A stretch of DNA of 36,877 bases, from NCBI GenBank assembly GCA_027348385.1, contig DAIEPO010000004.1, positions 1 through 36,877 on the forward strand, written 5' to 3'. The notes below the pieces were generated by a model. That model was not told the origin of the DNA. It ran no database searches and saw only the letters and a list, made by a program, of their open reading frames with translations. Numbering within the stretch: the stretch's first letter is position 1; each line of letters begins with the position of its first letter. The DNA comes from a bacterium (GTDB taxonomy: Bacteria > Patescibacteriota > Doudnabacteria > UBA920 > VMFF01). Of the stretch, positions 2,765 to 27,811 are shown one piece after another. Position numbers and translations under genes: made by a program.

Positions 2765-3739
2765 ATGCAAGAGAAAAAAAGTTTCCATGTCCCAGTTTTG
2801 CTAAAAGAAGTTTTAGAGTACTTAGATCCAAAACCAGGACAAACAGTTATTGATGGAACTTTGGGCGGTGGTGGACATGCATTGGCTCTGGCAAAGGCAA
2901 TTGAACCTAAAGGAATACTTGTTGGTATTGATTTAGATCCAGCTGCTCTTACAGAAGCAAGCGCCAAAGCAAAAGATGCAGATATAAAAACAGAACTGCA
3001 CTTTGTTAAGGGGAATTACAGAGATATAAAAAAGATTGTTAATGATTTAGCTTTAAGTGAAGTAAATGCCATTATTATCGACATCGGTATATCAAGTTAT
3101 GATCTGGAAGGATCTAATCGTGGATTTTCTTTCCAGAAGCATGAACCTCTAGACATGCGCTTTGACCCTGAAGCAAGACCAGCGCATAAAGAGAAAGAAC
3201 CATTTACAGCACGTTTCATCTTAAACCACTATTCTGAAAAAGATTTAAAGAAAACATTTGAAGAATACGGAGAAGAAAAGTTTAGTTCAAGAATTGTTCG
3301 GGGGATAATCGAACATAGACAGCAACAGAGTATAGAAACAACAGAAGATCTTTTTAACATCATTAAACACAGCTTACCAGCAGCCTTTCGTTTCAAAGCA
3401 GGTGACAGCGCTAGAAGAGTTTTCCAAGCCTTGAGAATAGAAGTAAACAAAGAGCTTGAAAATTTAGAAAAGTTTTTACCAGATGCATTTGAAGTATTGG
3501 CAAAAGGTGGAAAACTCGCAGTGATTAGCTTCCATTCCCTTGAAGACCGAATAGTAAAACACTTCTTCTTAGAAAAAGCCAAAGGATGCATTTGTCCACC
3601 AGATTTTCCACAGTGTGTTTGCGGCAAAGAACCACTAGCAAAGATATTAACCAAGAAACTAGTCTCAGCAAGTGAAGAAGAACAAAAAGAAAACAGTAGA
3701 AGCATACCAGCTAAATTAAGAGTTATTCAAAAGATTTAA
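2765..3739 (+). CDS. rsmH: 16S rRNA (cytosine1402-N4)-methyltransferase
   Basis: HVPVLLKEVLEYLDPKPGQTVIDGTLGGGGHALALA...; C-terminal AVISFHSLEDRIVKHFF. ATG at 2765 preferred over the in-frame ATG at 2753, which overlaps mraZ. Confidence 0.95.
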   Translation: MQEKKSFHVPVLLKEVLEYLDPKPGQTVIDGTLGGGGHALALAKAIEPKGILVGIDLDPAALTEASAKAKDADIKTELHFVKGNYRDIKKIVNDLALSEVNAIIIDIGISSYDLEGSNRGFSFQKHEPLDMRFDPEARPAHKEKEPFTARFILNHYSEKDLKKTFEEYGEEKFSSRIVRGIIEHRQQQSIETTEDLFNIIKHSLPAAFRFKAGDSARRVFQALRIEVNKELENLEKFLPDAFEVLAKGGKLAVISFHSLEDRIVKHFFLEKAKGCICPPDFPQCVCGKEPLAKILTKKLVSASEEEQKENSRSIPAKLRVIQKI

Positions 3740-3759
3740 ACAAAGGAAAACAAAAACAA

Positions 3760-4125
3760 ATGGGAAGATACTTCGCACTATCAATGAACTTGCCAGCTCA
3801 ACAAAGAGTCTCAAGAGAGAGCAGGGTTAAAACAGCAAAACACAACCTGCTTACAAATAACAGAGCGGGACTGCTTCTTTTCACTGCTTGCTGCTTAATG
3901 CTTTTGGTATACTTGGTACAAGTAAACAGCTATTCTACAAAAGGTTTTGAAATAAAAAGTTTAGAACAGAAAATTTCCCAACTAAAAGAAGAACAAAAAC
4001 AGCTTCAAATTCAATCAGCAGAATTGCAGTCTTTCCAAAGAATTCAAGGCGATGCTGCGGTTGTGAACATGGTTCCTGTATCAACAATTTCATACATACA
4101 AACCACAGCACTTTCTGAAAGATAG
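3760..4125 (+). CDS. Small single-TM septum protein, FtsL/DivIC-like
   Basis: Position between rsmH and ftsI; one hydrophobic segment (GLLLFTACCLMLLVYLVQV) followed by a coiled-coil-like KSLEQKISQLKEEQKQLQIQSAELQ. Confidence 0.6.
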   Translation: MGRYFALSMNLPAQQRVSRESRVKTAKHNLLTNNRAGLLLFTACCLMLLVYLVQVNSYSTKGFEIKSLEQKISQLKEEQKQLQIQSAELQSFQRIQGDAAVVNMVPVSTISYIQTTALSER

Positions 4126-4145
4126 CAACTAACCTACTTGCATGC

Positions 4146-5870
4146 ATGAACAAAGAACAACAAAAAGATTTCTCGCATAGGATCGTATTTTTAAAATCTA
4201 TTTTAGTCTTGTCCGCAGCCTTAATGCTTTTAAGGCTTTTTATTATCTCTGTTGGTCAACATTCCTATTACATTGCTCAAGCAGAAAGCCAACATGGTTA
4301 CTACCAAAAGTTAATTCCTACCAGAGGTGAAATATTCATCTCAGACAAGTATTCACAAAAACCATACCCTATCGCAACCAATTCCAAAAAAGACTTGGTA
4401 TATATTGTGCCTCAAAACATTCTCAAAACTGCTGAGACTGCAGAAACACTAGCGCGTATTACAAACCTTGATTCCACAGAGCTACTAGTTAAGATTTCTG
4501 ATCAATCAAGAAAATACATTGTCATAAAAAAAGGGCTTACTGTAGAAGAATCAAAAGCTATTGCAGAAGCAAAGCTTGCGGGGGTTTTCTTAGATCAGGA
4601 AAATACCAGATATTATCCTGAAGGCCAGTTTTTAAGTCAGGTCTTGGGTTTTTTGGGATACAAAGATAAATCTGATGAGAGAACTGGACTCTATGGTTTA
4701 GAAAAGTACATGCAAAAAGAACTCGCTGGCATACCCGGTGAAATATCAGCAGATGTCAGTGTTAACGGTGCTGCAATTCCAGGAACTCAAAAACAATTTA
4801 CTCCAGCAGTTGATGGTACCTCATTATACTTAACAATTGATCGAGCCATACAATTTAAAGCCGAAACAGTTATTAGAGAATCAGTGCAAAAACATGGTGC
4901 TGATTCAGGCACGATTATTGTTGCAGATCCAAAAACTGGCGCAATACTTGCTATGGCAAACTTTCCAAGCTTTGATCCTAATGCATACAACAAAGCTACA
5001 ACTCCTGCTGTATATATCAATGACGCAACCACAGAAAACTACGAGCCAGGGTCAACCATGAAAACAATCACCATGGCCACAGGCATTGATCTAGGCGTGG
5101 TTAATCCATCGACTACCTACAATGACACGGGTGTTGTTGAAGTCGATGGCTACAAGATCAAAAACTCAGACGGCAAAGCATCTGGTGTTGTGCCAATGAC
5201 CCAAGTTATTAACCAGTCTTTAAACACTGGTGCAATCTTTGTTCAAAAACAAATTGGTAATGAAAGATTTTACCAATCCTTAAAAAACTTTGGTTTTGGA
5301 ACAGCAACAAACGTTGAATTACCAGAAGCCATAGGTAATTTAAGCAATTTAAAAACCAATATCACTGTCAACTTCTATACCGCAGCTTTTGGACAAGGTA
5401 TTACTGTAACGCCACTGCAAATGCTTCAGTCATATATTCCACTAGCAAACAAAGGTAAACTGATGCAACCATACATCATTGATTCAAAAGTTTTACCTGA
5501 TGGAACAGTTATCAAAACAGAGCCAAAGATGTTAAGAGAAGTTGTCTCAGAAAAAACAGCAACCTTAATTTCTGGGATGCTAGTTGATAACGTTGAGAAC
5601 GGGCATGGCAAACAAGCTGGTGTTAAAGGATATTACATTGGTGGTAAAACTGGAACAGCACAAGTTGCTTCAGGCGGAGTTTATGTGCAAAATGATAATA
5701 TCGGATCATTTGTTGGCTATGGACCAACAGAAGATCCAAGATTTGTAATGATAGTTGATGTAAAACACCCTAGAGATGTTAAGTTTGCAGAAAGCACAGC
5801 AGCACCTGCTTTTGGTAGGATGGCTGAGTTCATTTTAGGGTATTACGATATTCCACCAACAAGGAAATAG
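4146..5870 (+). CDS. ftsI: Penicillin-binding protein 2 / FtsI-type transpeptidase
   Basis: N-terminal TM; PBP dimerization domain; SxxK (YEPGSTMKTIT), SxN (NQSLNTGA), KTG (GGKTGTAQ). Confidence 0.93.
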   Translation: MNKEQQKDFSHRIVFLKSILVLSAALMLLRLFIISVGQHSYYIAQAESQHGYYQKLIPTRGEIFISDKYSQKPYPIATNSKKDLVYIVPQNILKTAETAETLARITNLDSTELLVKISDQSRKYIVIKKGLTVEESKAIAEAKLAGVFLDQENTRYYPEGQFLSQVLGFLGYKDKSDERTGLYGLEKYMQKELAGIPGEISADVSVNGAAIPGTQKQFTPAVDGTSLYLTIDRAIQFKAETVIRESVQKHGADSGTIIVADPKTGAILAMANFPSFDPNAYNKATTPAVYINDATTENYEPGSTMKTITMATGIDLGVVNPSTTYNDTGVVEVDGYKIKNSDGKASGVVPMTQVINQSLNTGAIFVQKQIGNERFYQSLKNFGFGTATNVELPEAIGNLSNLKTNITVNFYTAAFGQGITVTPLQMLQSYIPLANKGKLMQPYIIDSKVLPDGTVIKTEPKMLREVVSEKTATLISGMLVDNVENGHGKQAGVKGYYIGGKTGTAQVASGGVYVQNDNIGSFVGYGPTEDPRFVMIVDVKHPRDVKFAESTAAPAFGRMAEFILGYYDIPPTRK

Positions 5871-7182: not shown

Positions 7183-7257
7183 GGCGCTATCGTCTAGTGG
7201 CTAGGACGGCTGGTTCTCATCCAGTAAACCGGGGTTCGATTCCCCGTAGCGCTACCA
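7183..7257 (+). tRNA. tRNA-Glu, anticodon CTC, CCA encoded
   Basis: Manual cloverleaf: acceptor ggcgcta/tagcgct, D-arm gtctagtggctaggac, anticodon stem gctgg/ccagt with loop ttCTCat, T-arm cgggg-ttcgatt-ccccg, A73, CCA. Confidence 0.93.
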
Positions 7258-22185: not shown

Positions 22186-23349
22186 ATGGAATTACCACAA
22201 GGCGCTCAAGACCTATATCAACAATTAGGAGCTCACAGTCACGATGACCATGATGCTTCTTCTGAGCATGTAACAACAAATCACGAAGCACATGTTGCTT
22301 CAGAACATGCCCAAGAAGTTAAAACTCCATTAATTGAACATGATCCTGAAAGCAAAATAACAACAGTTAGAGTATCTCAGATTCCTTTTGGGAAAATAGC
22401 TAAGAAAGTATTACCATATTTACTCGTCTTCATAGTTGCGATCGGATTATTCATGCTTCTTTTAACAAACTTTTCTTTGAAATCAATGTTTGGTAGTACA
22501 AGCAAGCCTCAAACAAAAGTTGTTACTCAATACACTAACTTGGAAGGTTACAGCAAGTGGATTAATTCATATTTCTATGAAGTAACCGATGCTTCAATCC
22601 TTGCTCCTGATTATGATATCTCAGGAAACGGTTTAACTAACTATCAAAAATTCATCTTGGGATTAAATCCAAAACGCAGAGATACTTTAGGTTTAGGCAT
22701 TACAGATACCCAAGCTTTGATTGCTGGAATAAACCCATTAACAGGTAGTGCTATGACAGAAGAACAAAAGAAACTAGTTGCAACATACATAGACTTAGAA
22801 TCTGTTTCAAACAAACTTTCTTTAGCTGTTGCTCAAGCAAGTGGAATGGTTGCAGGTGCTAATTCAAGTGTCAATGAAACTAGAAGTAATACAGCAGTTA
22901 AACAAACAGAAAATGCTTTGTTAAGTATTCCATCACTTGGAATTACAGTTCCAGTAGTTTGGACAACTAGTGTCAAAAACTTTGATAAGGATTTGCAAGC
23001 AGGAGTTGTGCACTATCCAGGAACAGCCATGCTAGGTGAAATCGGTACCTCATATATTTCAGGTCACTCTTCAAACTATTCTTGGGCCAAAGGTGATTAC
23101 AACAAGATTTTTGAAAAGTTAGGCAATTTAAAACAATATGATTCTTTCTCAATTACAGCAAATGATGAATCTGGAAAGAAAATAATCTTCCACTATGTAG
23201 TAACCAGCTCATCTGTATTTAAAGCAGATGATCAAGCACAGTTTGCAAACCAAGGTAAGTCAATTGTTGCGCTTTCAACATGCTGGCCAATCGGAACAAC
23301 TTCAAAAAGATTAGTTGTTTTTGGAGAACTGAGTCAGACAGAGAGATAA
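22186..23349 (+). CDS. Sortase with His-rich cytoplasmic N-terminus and EF-hand/TSP3-like segment
   Basis: LSIPSLGITVPVVW ... GTSYISGHSSNYSWAKGDYNKIFEKLGNLKQYDSFSI ... ALSTCWPIGTTSKRLVVFGEL (catalytic His and Cys context). One TM; DYDISGNGLTNYQKFILGLNPKRRDT. Confidence 0.88.
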   Translation: MELPQGAQDLYQQLGAHSHDDHDASSEHVTTNHEAHVASEHAQEVKTPLIEHDPESKITTVRVSQIPFGKIAKKVLPYLLVFIVAIGLFMLLLTNFSLKSMFGSTSKPQTKVVTQYTNLEGYSKWINSYFYEVTDASILAPDYDISGNGLTNYQKFILGLNPKRRDTLGLGITDTQALIAGINPLTGSAMTEEQKKLVATYIDLESVSNKLSLAVAQASGMVAGANSSVNETRSNTAVKQTENALLSIPSLGITVPVVWTTSVKNFDKDLQAGVVHYPGTAMLGEIGTSYISGHSSNYSWAKGDYNKIFEKLGNLKQYDSFSITANDESGKKIIFHYVVTSSSVFKADDQAQFANQGKSIVALSTCWPIGTTSKRLVVFGELSQTER

Positions 23350-23390: not shown

Positions 23391-23502
23391 AAAGAATATT
23401 TAAAAAAACAGAGCTGGTCCAGAATTAAGGCTCAGATTTTAAAGAAAGGGCAATCGCCACTAGAGGCGAGCCCAAAGCACACTACAATCCGTTGGAGGAT
23501 TT

Positions 23503-24555
23503 GTGAGATTCATTCAGTGGTGCCTCGTTGTTGTTTTGAGCGCTGCCGTTACATTGGTGGCCTCAGGACAACAGGCGCGTTACGAACGTGGCAAGGACAG
23601 CTTCGTGTTGTCACTGCCGCGCTTTACAAGCGCCGCCGAGCAGGACACGATCATGCGTTTTGTCGGGCTTGATAACGAGCTCGCAACGCGGATCGCTTGT
23701 ACCAAGGATTCAGTCGTTGCTGCGCTGGTCTCGAAGAACAGCACTGCAACTTCCGTCCTTGCATCACTCAGGGCGTTGCCTGAGGTGCGCGACTGCCGGC
23801 TGAAGCTGGTCGGGAGCGTAAGACCCCAGGTCTTCATCCTCGAGGGACAGGAGAACGCGCAGGGTTACACCGATATTTCATCGAAGGTGTTCCTAACCAA
23901 CGTTTCGCCCGTCATTGCGACTGGGTGCGACTCGGCGAACTACAAGGTTTGCTTCGCGACTCATGCTGCCACGGACACGGTTTTCCAAAACCGGATTCGG
24001 AAGGTAGCACTCGGCAACACAGACAAGGCTCTGGAATACCTCAAGAGCTGGGATACTTCGCACGTGTCGCTCGTTCGCACGAACGATCGGCTCGTTGACG
24101 AAGATCTTGGGCTGCGAGGAGTTCGCCGGATGGTACGAGTTCGTGGGGATGTGACGACTGTCCACGTTGTCTATGATGACGGGGGATCAATCGATCTCAA
24201 GATGACTTGCGGTAACCCGGGAAGGCAAGCTCAACACGTGGTCTACTCCGTCAAGATTGAGGAGCCGACACCGACGTTGCGCCAACAGGTGATGTACCCG
24301 CCGCCGGAAAAGAAGGAGCCGTGCAACTGCCCGCCTCCGAAAGTTATTAAGGTCAAGCAACCCATCGCTTGCTTTAGCAGCTTCTGGAGCTTCAGCTTCA
24401 CCAAGCTCAACAAGGTCGGCGGGCTTCAGTGCCTGCTCTTTGCGGGGCTGACCTGGGGAGGCATCGAGCTTTCCAAGGGACATCCAGCCCAAGCTGAATC
24501 ATCCAAGAGCGGTGGACCGCCGCAGGGACCTCCCGGGGTTCCCAGAGGACCATGA
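23503..24555 (+). CDS. GC-rich orphan: predicted secreted/TM protein of unknown family, atypical composition
   Basis: GTG start with SD TTGGAGGA 5 nt upstream; signal-peptide-like VRFIQWCLVVVLSAAVTLVASGQ; multiple Cys; C-terminal hydrophobic segment LQCLLFAGLTWGGIEL and Pro/Gly tail. Hand-counted 60-nt lines are 55-60% GC, versus 35% for a sortase line. Confidence 0.7.
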   Translation: MRFIQWCLVVVLSAAVTLVASGQQARYERGKDSFVLSLPRFTSAAEQDTIMRFVGLDNELATRIACTKDSVVAALVSKNSTATSVLASLRALPEVRDCRLKLVGSVRPQVFILEGQENAQGYTDISSKVFLTNVSPVIATGCDSANYKVCFATHAATDTVFQNRIRKVALGNTDKALEYLKSWDTSHVSLVRTNDRLVDEDLGLRGVRRMVRVRGDVTTVHVVYDDGGSIDLKMTCGNPGRQAQHVVYSVKIEEPTPTLRQQVMYPPPEKKEPCNCPPPKVIKVKQPIACFSSFWSFSFTKLNKVGGLQCLLFAGLTWGGIELSKGHPAQAESSKSGGPPQGPPGVPRGP

Positions 24556-24569
24556 CATCTCACGTATAC

Positions 24570-24647
24570 GAGGGCCCGGAAGCCCTCTAACAAGGTGGGG
24601 GTGTGCAGGTCAAGCATTCGCTTGTCTGTACGCCCCTCACCACCTTG
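24570..24647 (+). other. Two consecutive strong hairpins at the right end of the GC-rich island
   Basis: GAGGGC-ccggaa-GCCCTC (24570-24587), then CAAGGTGG+GGGTGTGCAG ... CTGTACGCCC+ctca+CCACCTTG (24591-24647) with inner CAAGC-attc-GCTTG. Confidence 0.7.
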
Positions 24648-24739
24648 AAACTTTAACTGGTGAAATTAGTAAGCTCTTAACTTCCTAATTTTACTAGTGA
24701 AAGCTAGTAGTTAATCGAGAATTAAGATTAGGGACACAT

Positions 24740-27700
24740 ATGACAAAATTAATAGGAGTTATAAAGTCTAGATACTTCGTAGCAGCAGTGGTTGTACTTG
24801 CTGTTGCAGTTTTTGGATTTGCAAAGGTCTACAAACAGGCACAAGCAGATATTGCTTGTACTGGATACAACACAAATAGTCCGGCATTAAACATCTGGCC
24901 ACTAACATGGTCTGGTGAAGCTTGTCATGACTATGCATTGGTCGATGCAAAAAATTTAAATGGCGGACGTTATGCGCTTTCTCAAGCAGAACATGATGCA
25001 GGGTTTTTCGTAAATCCTGGTGATCGTGTGCGTGTCAGCGTATATTTCCACAATGGTGCTAATCAAGCTCCAGCATCTGACCCTTATGCAAACATTGCAA
25101 GAAATGTAACTGCTTTCAGCTATTACGATACAAACTTAGGTACATCTCACGCTGTTAATGGTGCTTTGATGTCTTCAAATGCAGGCGTTGCAAGTAGCTC
25201 CAATCATGGTGGCGATGTAACTGTAAAAAGCAATATTCCAACAACCTTGTCATATGTTCCTCAATCTACACAAATGTGTGTCAGCCAAGCATATATCCAA
25301 GCAACACACATCTCGGCTAATACTAGCTCAAGCAATGTTTGTGGTTATACCTTTGATAATCAGCCAATGTATTTGGTTAACTTACCAGATGGTATCAGCA
25401 CAAACAGAGGAGTAGATCTCGGCGATCTCCCAGCATGTTTCCCATACGCAGGATTTGTCATTTACACCTTACAAGTTAATGGTGTCGCTGGTCCTGCTCA
25501 AACAAATCTTTCATTAACAAAAACAGTTAGTCTCTCAGGACAAAACTCTTTTTCTAAATCTGTAAACACTAAAAACGGTGATGTTGTTGATTTTAGAGTA
25601 ACAGTTGTAAACAATGGTCCTGGGGTTGCGAATAATATAAACATCAGGGATATTTTGCCTGTTGGTTTAAGCTTGATCTCTGGAACTGGCAGATTAAACG
25701 GAGTTGGCGGTTATGACTCAGTTGTTACAAGTTCAAACGGATATAGTACAGGCATGAATTTACAAACAGGCGCTCAAATGGTTTTTACATTCTCGGCAAC
25801 TGTTAATGTAGCTTCAGGTTCTTTGATAAATAACGCGTCAGCACAGGGCTCAAATACAAATTATACTTCAGATTCAGCAACTGTTAATGTCTCTTCAGGC
25901 ACAGCCAATGCTTGTATCATAGACAGCTTTACAGCAGACAGCTCAACTGTTACTGCGGGTAGTTCAACAATCCTTCGCTTCAGTGCATCAAACGTTGTCT
26001 CTGGTTCAATGTATATCAGCGGTGGACGTTTCAATGGATATTCATTGAACGGACTTTCAAGTATTGATACAGGTACATTGAATACAACTACTACATATAC
26101 AATCACAGCAAATGGCATTGGTGGTTCATGTTCAAGAAGCGTAACGGTTACTGTCAGTGGCACACCTCCTGTTTCAGGAACTGCTTGTGCTATTGATACA
26201 TTCACAGCTAACAATCTCATTGTAAATTCAGGATCCTCAACAACACTTAATTGGACTACATCAAATGTTGGTTCAAATGGGTTGTATCTTTCAGGCGGAA
26301 GATTTAACGGTCAATTAGTTGCTAATAACGGCAGCATTGATACTGGTGCAATTAATGGCACAGTAACATATACACTCTTTGGTAGTGGCACTAATGGTTC
26401 ATGTTCAAGAAGCGTAACGGTTACTGTCAGTGGCACACCTCCTGTTTCAGGAACTGCTTGTACTATTGATACATTGACCGTTGATTCAGCCACAGTAAAT
26501 TCTGGTAGTGCAACAACACTTAATTGGACTACATCAAATGTTGGTTCAAATGGACTATATCTTTCAGGTGGTGGTTTTACAGGTCAACCAGTTGCAAACA
26601 ATGGAAGTATGGTTACTAACCCCTTGTTTAACACAGCAACTTTTACCTTGTTTGGTACAGGAACCAATGGTTCATGTACAAGAAGTATTACCGTGAGTGT
26701 TGCAGGAACACCAGGAACTTCAGGAACAGCATGTTCTATTGATTCATTTTCAGCAGATAGCTTTAATGGTACATACGGAAATTCAACAACTCTTCGCTGG
26801 AGTGCTTCAAATGCAAACAGCTTATATCTTTCAGGCGGAAGATTTAACGGTCAATTAGTTGCCAATGGTGGTAGTATTGATTCCGGGGCCTTGTACGGTT
26901 CAACTACATTCACCTTGTTTGGTAATGGTAATAACGGGTCATGTACTAGAAGTATTTCTTTAGGAACTTCAGGATACTATTACCCACCATATAATTCAGG
27001 AAATACTTACTGCAACATTGATTCTTTTGTGGCTGATTCATACAGCGTCAGTTATGGTTCTTCAACAACTCTTCGCTGGAATGCAAATAGCTCCAACACA
27101 CTTTCAATCTATGGTGGCAGATTTAATGGTCAGTCTGTAAGTGCTTCTGGTTCGATGGATTCAGGTCCTATTACAGGAACCACAACATTTACACTCAGTG
27201 GGTATATTTTTGGTTCCAATTGTAGCAGAAACTTAACAGTTAATGTTTCAACAGGCGCTGTAGCAGGTGCAAGTATTGGTTTAAGCTATTCCAAGAGCGC
27301 CTTTAACAACACCAAGAACATGGATGCAACAACAGTTCTTGCTGAAAAAGAAAATTATATTACCTACACCCTTGTAACAACAAATACAGGTGGTAATACA
27401 GTGTATAATTTTGTAGTAGCTGATGACCTCTCCGGAGTATTAGCGTATGCAGATATAGACGGTAGTGATCAATTGAGCAAAGGATATATTCTTTCAGGAA
27501 ACACCATTTCTTTCCCAGCTCAAACAATCTATGCTAACAGTTCTGTAACAAATACCTTTAAGGTTAGGGTAAAGTATAACCTACCAAGTGCTTCTAATTT
27601 GAGCATGGTAAATACATACGGAAACACTGTTACTGTAAGACTAACTGCGCCCCAAGTTTTGGGTGCAACTTTTGTCGCTCCTAAAACCGGAGCAGGAGCA

Positions 27701-27811
27701 ACCCTTGCGGTTCTCTTTGCAGCTTTAGTAACTTTGCTCTTTGCATATGCAAAAAGAAAAGGAACCTTTAAATCACTCTTAGAGAAAATGCTTAAAGTAA
27801 GGATTGAATAA
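24740..27811 (+). CDS. Large surface protein: DUF11-like domains, five ~91-aa Ig-like repeats, C-terminal PKTG-type sortase sorting signal
   Basis: Signal/TM N-terminus; LSLTKTV...GDVVDFRVTVVNNGPGVANNINIRDILPVGL (DUF11-like); five repeats with ACxIDxF ... LYLSGGRFNGQ ... NGSCxRSxTV; C-terminus FVAPKTGAGATLAVLFAALVTLLFAYAKRK. Confidence 0.88.
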   Translation: MTKLIGVIKSRYFVAAVVVLAVAVFGFAKVYKQAQADIACTGYNTNSPALNIWPLTWSGEACHDYALVDAKNLNGGRYALSQAEHDAGFFVNPGDRVRVSVYFHNGANQAPASDPYANIARNVTAFSYYDTNLGTSHAVNGALMSSNAGVASSSNHGGDVTVKSNIPTTLSYVPQSTQMCVSQAYIQATHISANTSSSNVCGYTFDNQPMYLVNLPDGISTNRGVDLGDLPACFPYAGFVIYTLQVNGVAGPAQTNLSLTKTVSLSGQNSFSKSVNTKNGDVVDFRVTVVNNGPGVANNINIRDILPVGLSLISGTGRLNGVGGYDSVVTSSNGYSTGMNLQTGAQMVFTFSATVNVASGSLINNASAQGSNTNYTSDSATVNVSSGTANACIIDSFTADSSTVTAGSSTILRFSASNVVSGSMYISGGRFNGYSLNGLSSIDTGTLNTTTTYTITANGIGGSCSRSVTVTVSGTPPVSGTACAIDTFTANNLIVNSGSSTTLNWTTSNVGSNGLYLSGGRFNGQLVANNGSIDTGAINGTVTYTLFGSGTNGSCSRSVTVTVSGTPPVSGTACTIDTLTVDSATVNSGSATTLNWTTSNVGSNGLYLSGGGFTGQPVANNGSMVTNPLFNTATFTLFGTGTNGSCTRSITVSVAGTPGTSGTACSIDSFSADSFNGTYGNSTTLRWSASNANSLYLSGGRFNGQLVANGGSIDSGALYGSTTFTLFGNGNNGSCTRSISLGTSGYYYPPYNSGNTYCNIDSFVADSYSVSYGSSTTLRWNANSSNTLSIYGGRFNGQSVSASGSMDSGPITGTTTFTLSGYIFGSNCSRNLTVNVSTGAVAGASIGLSYSKSAFNNTKNMDATTVLAEKENYITYTLVTTNTGGNTVYNFVVADDLSGVLAYADIDGSDQLSKGYILSGNTISFPAQTIYANSSVTNTFKVRVKYNLPSASNLSMVNTYGNTVTVRLTAPQVLGATFVAPKTGAGATLAVLFAALVTLLFAYAKRKGTFKSLLEKMLKVRIE
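25910..27260 (+). repeat. Five tandem ~273-bp coding repeats
   Basis: Units start near 25910, 26183, 26456, 26729 and 27008. Exact 67-bp identity between 26122-26188 and 26395-26461 (offset 273); a further near-identical ~38-bp block at 26285 and 26825. Confidence 0.9.

Follow-up and report, generated by a model that had tools for sequence, protein, structure and literature searches.

A probably long-resident, moron-like surface-protein gene with maintained GC-rich composition beside a sortase gene in Doudnabacteria

Between a sortase gene and a large surface-protein gene of a member of the Ca. Doudnabacteria (Patescibacteria), a tiny, probably host-dependent bacterium, lies a slot with a single GC-rich gene, which we consider likely to be a long-resident, moron-like surface-protein unit with a GC content that is maintained as a property of its class. 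The high GC content spans the whole transcript, leader and 3′ hairpin included, and is a maintained property, not a foreign signature. The slot is conserved and its gene is modular and replaceable, the compositional borders are sharp and lie at the gene edges, and the proteins encoded by this class of GC-rich islands are under purifying selection.

Within the window (the whole stretch of 36,877 nt analysed here), the GC content steps from about 36% in the surrounding DNA to about 57% in the island (Table 1), with 500-bp windows across 23501–24500 at 0.566–0.568 and both flanks at about 0.35–0.40, in agreement with the abrupt change reported in the first-pass annotation of this DNA. The island has a single convincing ORF (350 aa), which shows features first ascribed to it, namely a GTG start with GGAGGA close upstream, a signal peptide, and a C-terminal hydrophobic stretch followed by a Pro/Gly tail (SGGPPQGPPGVPRGP). 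A comparison of GC3, as had been proposed, gave 0.66 for the slot gene, versus 0.24 for the sortase gene and 0.25 for the downstream gene. No family had been recognised for the product and Pfam was likewise empty, and searching Rfam and the phage and plasmid records with the gene gave nothing either; the protein had no match in scans of close relatives in the 85k-species genome collection or in IMG/VR, and AlphaFold on the single sequence gave a model too poor for use (mean pLDDT 37).

The location between a sortase gene and the gene of its probable substrate also held up, as the upstream gene matched Pfam PF04203 (E=1.4e-20), and the downstream gene encodes a DUF11 protein with the LPXTG-like motif APKTG, a transmembrane segment (TM) and a basic tail at its C-terminus, the combination that marks sortase substrates. 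An [AS]PKTG sorting signal was present in 14/14 of the corresponding downstream genes of relatives. The C-terminus of the slot protein has no LPXTG-like sorting motif and does not qualify as a sortase substrate. The hairpins noted at both edges are real: the 5′ hairpin is clear, with a hairpin of differing sequence at the equivalent position in the two sister species, and the stretch holding the second 3′ hairpin has a folding z of -6.5. An automatic three-sequence consensus fold of the leader did not recover the 5′ hairpin, probably because the leader lengths differ. No U-tract was found at the second 3′ hairpin, which is therefore not a canonical intrinsic terminator, and neither a clear promoter nor a canonical U-tract terminator was seen for the unit in the window.

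Table 1. Coordinates of the features at the slot locus (positions in the window)
Feature	Position	Strand	Basis or remark
Sortase gene, product with N-terminal extension and TM; conserved on the 5′ side of the slot	22186..23349	+	PF04203; orthologues across the order
GC-rich island, 57% GC, 5′ leader to 3′ hairpin	23440..24650	+	G001 and G002 have equivalents at this junction
5′ leader hairpin GGGC..TCGCC/GGCGA.GCCC	23448..23473	+	z=-3.35 for 23430-23502
Shine-Dalgarno sequence GGAGGA	23494..23499	+	Sequence
Slot gene, predicted secreted product: signal peptide, variable ectodomain, hydrophobic segment, Pro/Gly tail	23503..24555	+	Homology to the G004 slot protein
3′ hairpin 1, GAGGGC/GCCCTC	24570..24587	+	Stem identical across three species
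3′ hairpin 2, long stem, without U-tract	24591..24647	+	Kept in three species, one compensatory pair
Large DUF11 surface protein, probable sortase substrate	24740..27811	+	APKTG at about 27677-27691, then TM and basic tail

Sortase matches were found in 55/60 related genomes. When the window's genome (G000) was compared with two genomes of the same genus (G001 and G002), DNA homology covered the sortase gene (79–81%), broke off, and returned at 85–88% some ~40 nt before the end of the slot gene, continuing through the 3′ hairpins as far as the start of the downstream gene. Between these blocks both relatives contain a different GC-rich (0.57) gene, again with a GTG start, a strong Shine-Dalgarno sequence and a 5′ hairpin. 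The slot proteins of these two sister genomes (p3 and p4) are 73% identical and both have a lipobox, and the similarity of the window protein to them is limited to the C-terminal hydrophobic segment and the Pro/Gly tail (E about 1e-8). The window protein also shares homology with the slot protein of G004, from a different genus in the family (E about 1e-11), and this homology together with the C-terminal kinship to p3 and p4 indicates that the slot gene is an old, mosaic resident. The 3′ hairpins are kept across the three species, with one pair fully compensatory and 1/30 pairs broken in any sequence.

Since the same junction is GC-rich and carries near-identical 3′ hairpins in both same-genus genomes, an assembly chimera or mis-binned fragment, which the first-pass annotation wanted excluded first, is for practical purposes excluded: the draft genome comprises 50 contigs, but the arrangement and the matching 3′ UTR recur in other drafts of the genus. 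An origin suggested in that annotation, recent horizontal transfer from a high-GC donor, would fit the GC contrast and the lack of Pfam, phage and plasmid matches for the window gene. However, in both sister species, as elsewhere in the order, the slot is occupied by genes that are just as GC-rich, a homologue is present in another genus of the family, and there is no trend or decay toward the GC content of the host chromosome, which makes such an event very improbable, and it was rejected. The comparison of occupied and empty junctions in sister genomes, which had been proposed as a check, thus showed a GC-rich single gene at the junction in both. Residence of the same gene in close relatives at host-like composition had been named as the sign of an old resident; the gene is indeed old at this site, but its composition is GC-rich and not host-like, and a gene that is old yet still GC-rich was an outcome not foreseen.

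The slot can be followed across the order, represented by 49 genomes of relatives of Ca. Doudnabacteria, with long sortase orthologues (E<=1e-40) in 38. At the about 38 loci inspected downstream of the sortase gene, most slots with both flanks visible contained between one and three genes for secreted proteins whose architecture varies, including products with collagen repeats, PKD or weak beta-barrel similarity and, by eye, CsgG-like and peptidoglycan-binding-like segments, often with a Pro/Gly-rich tail at the end and occasionally on the opposite strand. Two slots in the order were empty (G014 at L070 and G031 at L085). In the 27 slots measured, the cargo had a GC content of 0.568 +/- 0.028 versus 0.447 +/- 0.044 for the sortase gene, with the cargo being the GC-richer in 27/27 (Wilcoxon 1.5e-8), and cargo GC was independent of host GC (slope -0.03, p=0.82). 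The sortase GC3 values of L068 and L069, taken in a wrong frame, are disregarded.

Silent sites allowed the history of this composition to be assessed. Fourfold distance could be estimated as a finite value for 12 island pairs between sister species and was 0.62–1.86, compared with 0.64–1.18 for ordinary genes, and fourfold GC in the pairs was mostly 0.56–0.77 in both species, versus 0.12–0.35 in ordinary genes; silent distances that equal or exceed those of ordinary genes, combined with high fourfold GC, indicate that the composition is maintained in place and is not fading. Lineage-specific fourfold changes in islands were 0.217 for S->W and 0.589 for W->S, which implies an equilibrium GC of about 0.73, whereas those in ordinary genes were 0.374 and 0.144, with an implied equilibrium of 0.28 (Fisher, island versus ordinary: p=0.004 for S->W, p=1.6e-13 for W->S). 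These changes were polarised approximately, by two-against-one majority among three species at dS~1 in 4 island and 5 ordinary genes, and because polarisation is rough at such divergence, the result is the contrast between the two gene sets, not the exact value. The dN/dS ratios of 0.09–0.23 for islands (0.04–0.10 for ordinary genes) show that the islands encode real, constrained proteins that evolve faster than ordinary ones. Codon use differs throughout, for example with Lys AAG at 0.89 in islands versus 0.31. The AT-rich, reduced genome of the window retains C34-anticodon tRNAs (Leu CAG, Ala CGC, Val CAC, Thr CGT, Gly CCC and Glu CTC; located at L109, L122, L135, L197 and window positions 7183–7257), which suit the codon usage of the islands.

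Some islands diverge discordantly, with G002 at 42–48% identity versus 68–73% for the G000/G001 pair, which points to allele replacement, and for this reason the main rival explanation is continual re-import, in which a shared GC-rich pool, posited to reside in other Patescibacteria or their elements, keeps supplying the slots through homologous or illegitimate recombination, and genes never stay long. The occupied and empty junctions between sister species described below, the window core, which is unlike p3 and p4 despite the shared 3′ UTR and tail, and the presence of a ComEC competence gene are also consistent with this explanation. However, silent distances in the L134, L132, L200 and p3/p4 pairs match those in ordinary genes, as expected under vertical descent, with GC undiminished, and we therefore consider re-import rather unlikely, though the strongest of the alternatives.

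Islands of this kind are not confined to the slot. Scanning the window's draft genome in full (555,027 bases) and 526 kb of sister G001 gave 41 and 54 stretches, respectively, with GC >= 0.49 over 300 bp. Some of these are tRNA clusters or ordinary genes, or lie on a contig (C7) that is probably mis-binned, leaving an estimated two to three dozen GC-rich single protein genes in the window's genome. Most of the stretches are single, fast-evolving, moron-like units that vary in presence and absence. Among 56 island ORFs there were few PHROGs matches, and the few Pfam matches were to cytidine deaminase, response-regulator-like and Big_1 domains. Parts of L096 (G000:C7) are 99–100% identical to sister contigs L152 and L196, with other genes at about 80%, so L096 is probably mis-binned or very recently shared.

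Averaged around 32 island genes, GC was 0.32–0.42 upstream of position -80, 0.44–0.53 from -60, about 0.57 within the ORF and 0.52–0.54 up to +60 past the stop codon, followed by 0.33, a profile in which the GC-rich part corresponds to the inferred transcript, with the promoter excluded. At several islands an own promoter and terminator were visible by eye. Such sharp edges fit badly with a local bias toward GC, whether in mutation or in gene conversion, at hot spots of recombination: the islands are variable accessory loci at which recombination may be frequent, but the raised GC does not extend past the transcript, its edges lying about 60 nt beyond the ORF, and the adjoining promoters and genes remain AT-rich, making this explanation improbable.

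For three islands the sister species has an empty counterpart (occupied versus empty: L094:12101-13130 versus L146:3459-3487, L147:17351-18130 versus L092:5315-5344, and L190:181-1070 versus L130:14576-14579). In the last of these the resident terminator hairpin is retained, and the island gene is located between this hairpin and the next promoter. Another locus of the sister genome (L169) is distantly similar to the L094 island, which is absent from the equivalent site there. None of the three junctions showed an obvious target-site duplication or terminal inverted repeat, and an all-against-all BLAST of the islands revealed no common terminal DNA sequence.

Several further arrangements were observed among the islands. 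L122:5361-7460 contains three tandem GC-rich genes with an own hairpin after each, two of which are also present at the equivalent sister locus L189, and the equivalent locus in G002 (L233) has several GC-rich segments. A Shine-Dalgarno-like AGGAGGA is located soon past the stop codon and before the hairpin in several island genes (L122:18408, L157:9347, L143:15413, L184:12079, L147:17500 and L095:8472). Three island genes unlike in sequence (L091:5859 and L094:12235 in G000, L169:1050 in G001) are preceded by a common leader, TTGGGCTTaGGGTTTTAG..ATATAT..CTTAGCTCA..CGAGC, which is possibly a regulatory RNA.

Beyond the order, island family A2/A3 was present in 14/287 Patescibacteria genomes, and the 85k-species collection yielded 18 records, the closest being Ca. 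Doudnabacteria Gr01-1014_77, with other carriers among Parcubacteria, Buchananbacteria, Howlettbacteria, Kazan, Berkelbacteria and Kerfeldbacteria, as well as one MAG labelled Chloroflexota. The GC content of these genes was mostly 0.56–0.61, in surroundings of 0.32–0.46, and was independent of the surroundings in the first 8 genes measured (slope 0.008), with moderate dependence in the 18-record set (slope 0.33, p=0.046). It is conceivable, and we are evenly divided on this, that Patescibacteria have a compositional compartment of dozens of dispersed, fast-evolving single-gene units actively held at about 57% GC, with a silent-site equilibrium of about 0.7, largely regardless of the GC content of the surrounding genome.

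Morons have been defined as single coding regions with their own transcription signals, located between genes that are adjacent in relatives and differing in composition (PMC4378225). The islands resemble them in being single genes between genes adjacent in relatives, as seen from the empty slots in the order and the three empty sister-species counterparts, and in having a composition unlike that of their neighbours. Unlike phage morons, dozens are scattered over a cellular chromosome, their composition is maintained over species divergence instead of fading, and no related protein was found in IMG/VR viral contigs for the two queries searched (island family A3 and the window protein). The term phage moron used in the first-pass annotation is therefore a good structural analogy, but the gene does not reside in a phage or prophage genome: residence there was rejected, as the surroundings in the window are chromosomal housekeeping genes and the unit matched neither viral contigs nor phage records. 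The anatomy is phage-moron-like but chromosomal, numerous and compositionally stable.

Genes of the accessory genome and of genomic islands share variable presence, mostly unknown function and atypical composition with the islands described here. On average, accessory genes have a lower GC content than core genes (PMC5303225), whereas these islands are far GC-richer and have their own equilibrium. Integron gene cassettes are likewise single genes with an imperfect 3′ hairpin, but the attC site (RYYYAAC ... GTTRRRY; R′/R″ motif pair) was absent from seven island 3′ ends, and the Phage_integrase family matched once in the genome, to a protein that is XerC/D-like by eye, so an integron cassette was rejected. 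As in LPXTG/sortase surface-display loci, the sortase gene adjoins that of a surface protein with [AS]PKTG, TM and basic tail; the slot protein differs in having a hydrophobic segment and Pro/Gly tail instead of a sorting signal. Targeted literature searches with partial coverage of journals yielded no description of such islands.

Another GC-rich island of the window's genome is the target of a diversity-generating retroelement (DGR). At L091 (G000:C2) we found an RT gene (3402–4400, minus strand), a TR (4805–4903) and a VR (5242–5340), with the target gene (5224–5859, minus strand) being the island, and 17/18 mismatches between the 99-nt TR and VR are at TR adenines. An RT in a sister genome (L150:5317-6279) is 52% related to the L091 RT and located about 0.9 kb from a GC-rich island gene (L150:3723-4463). 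In contrast, the window gene is unmatched to the template and differs from its relatives across the whole core, and neither TR nor VR had a match in the window, so the slot gene was rejected as a DGR target.

Returning to the slot as a long-resident unit, a signal peptide or lipobox and a hydrophobic segment were read from the sequence of the slot proteins, and the window gene product is predicted to be secreted and membrane-tethered. The signal peptide and the context suggest that it would most likely be displayed beside the sortase-anchored DUF11 protein, where it may play a part in host contact or evasion. The ectodomain would be swapped or rewritten between species, with the leader, C-terminal TM/tail and 3′ hairpins persisting, and GC may be held up by selection on transcripts or codons together with allele exchange within the gene class.

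Atypical GC content is a standard sign of recent gene transfer. With a class of accessory genes that holds an atypical, near-constant GC content in place, this reading would mislead in the lineage studied here. The GC-rich islands provide a sequence tag for a fast-evolving, probably host-facing gene set in organisms whose host-interaction genes are largely unknown, and raise the testable question of what holds these transcripts GC-rich. If a compositional compartment does exist in Patescibacteria, host-contact proteins and other accessory genes would be subject to a selective force, or belong to a shared circulating pool, that leaves the remaining chromosome unaffected.
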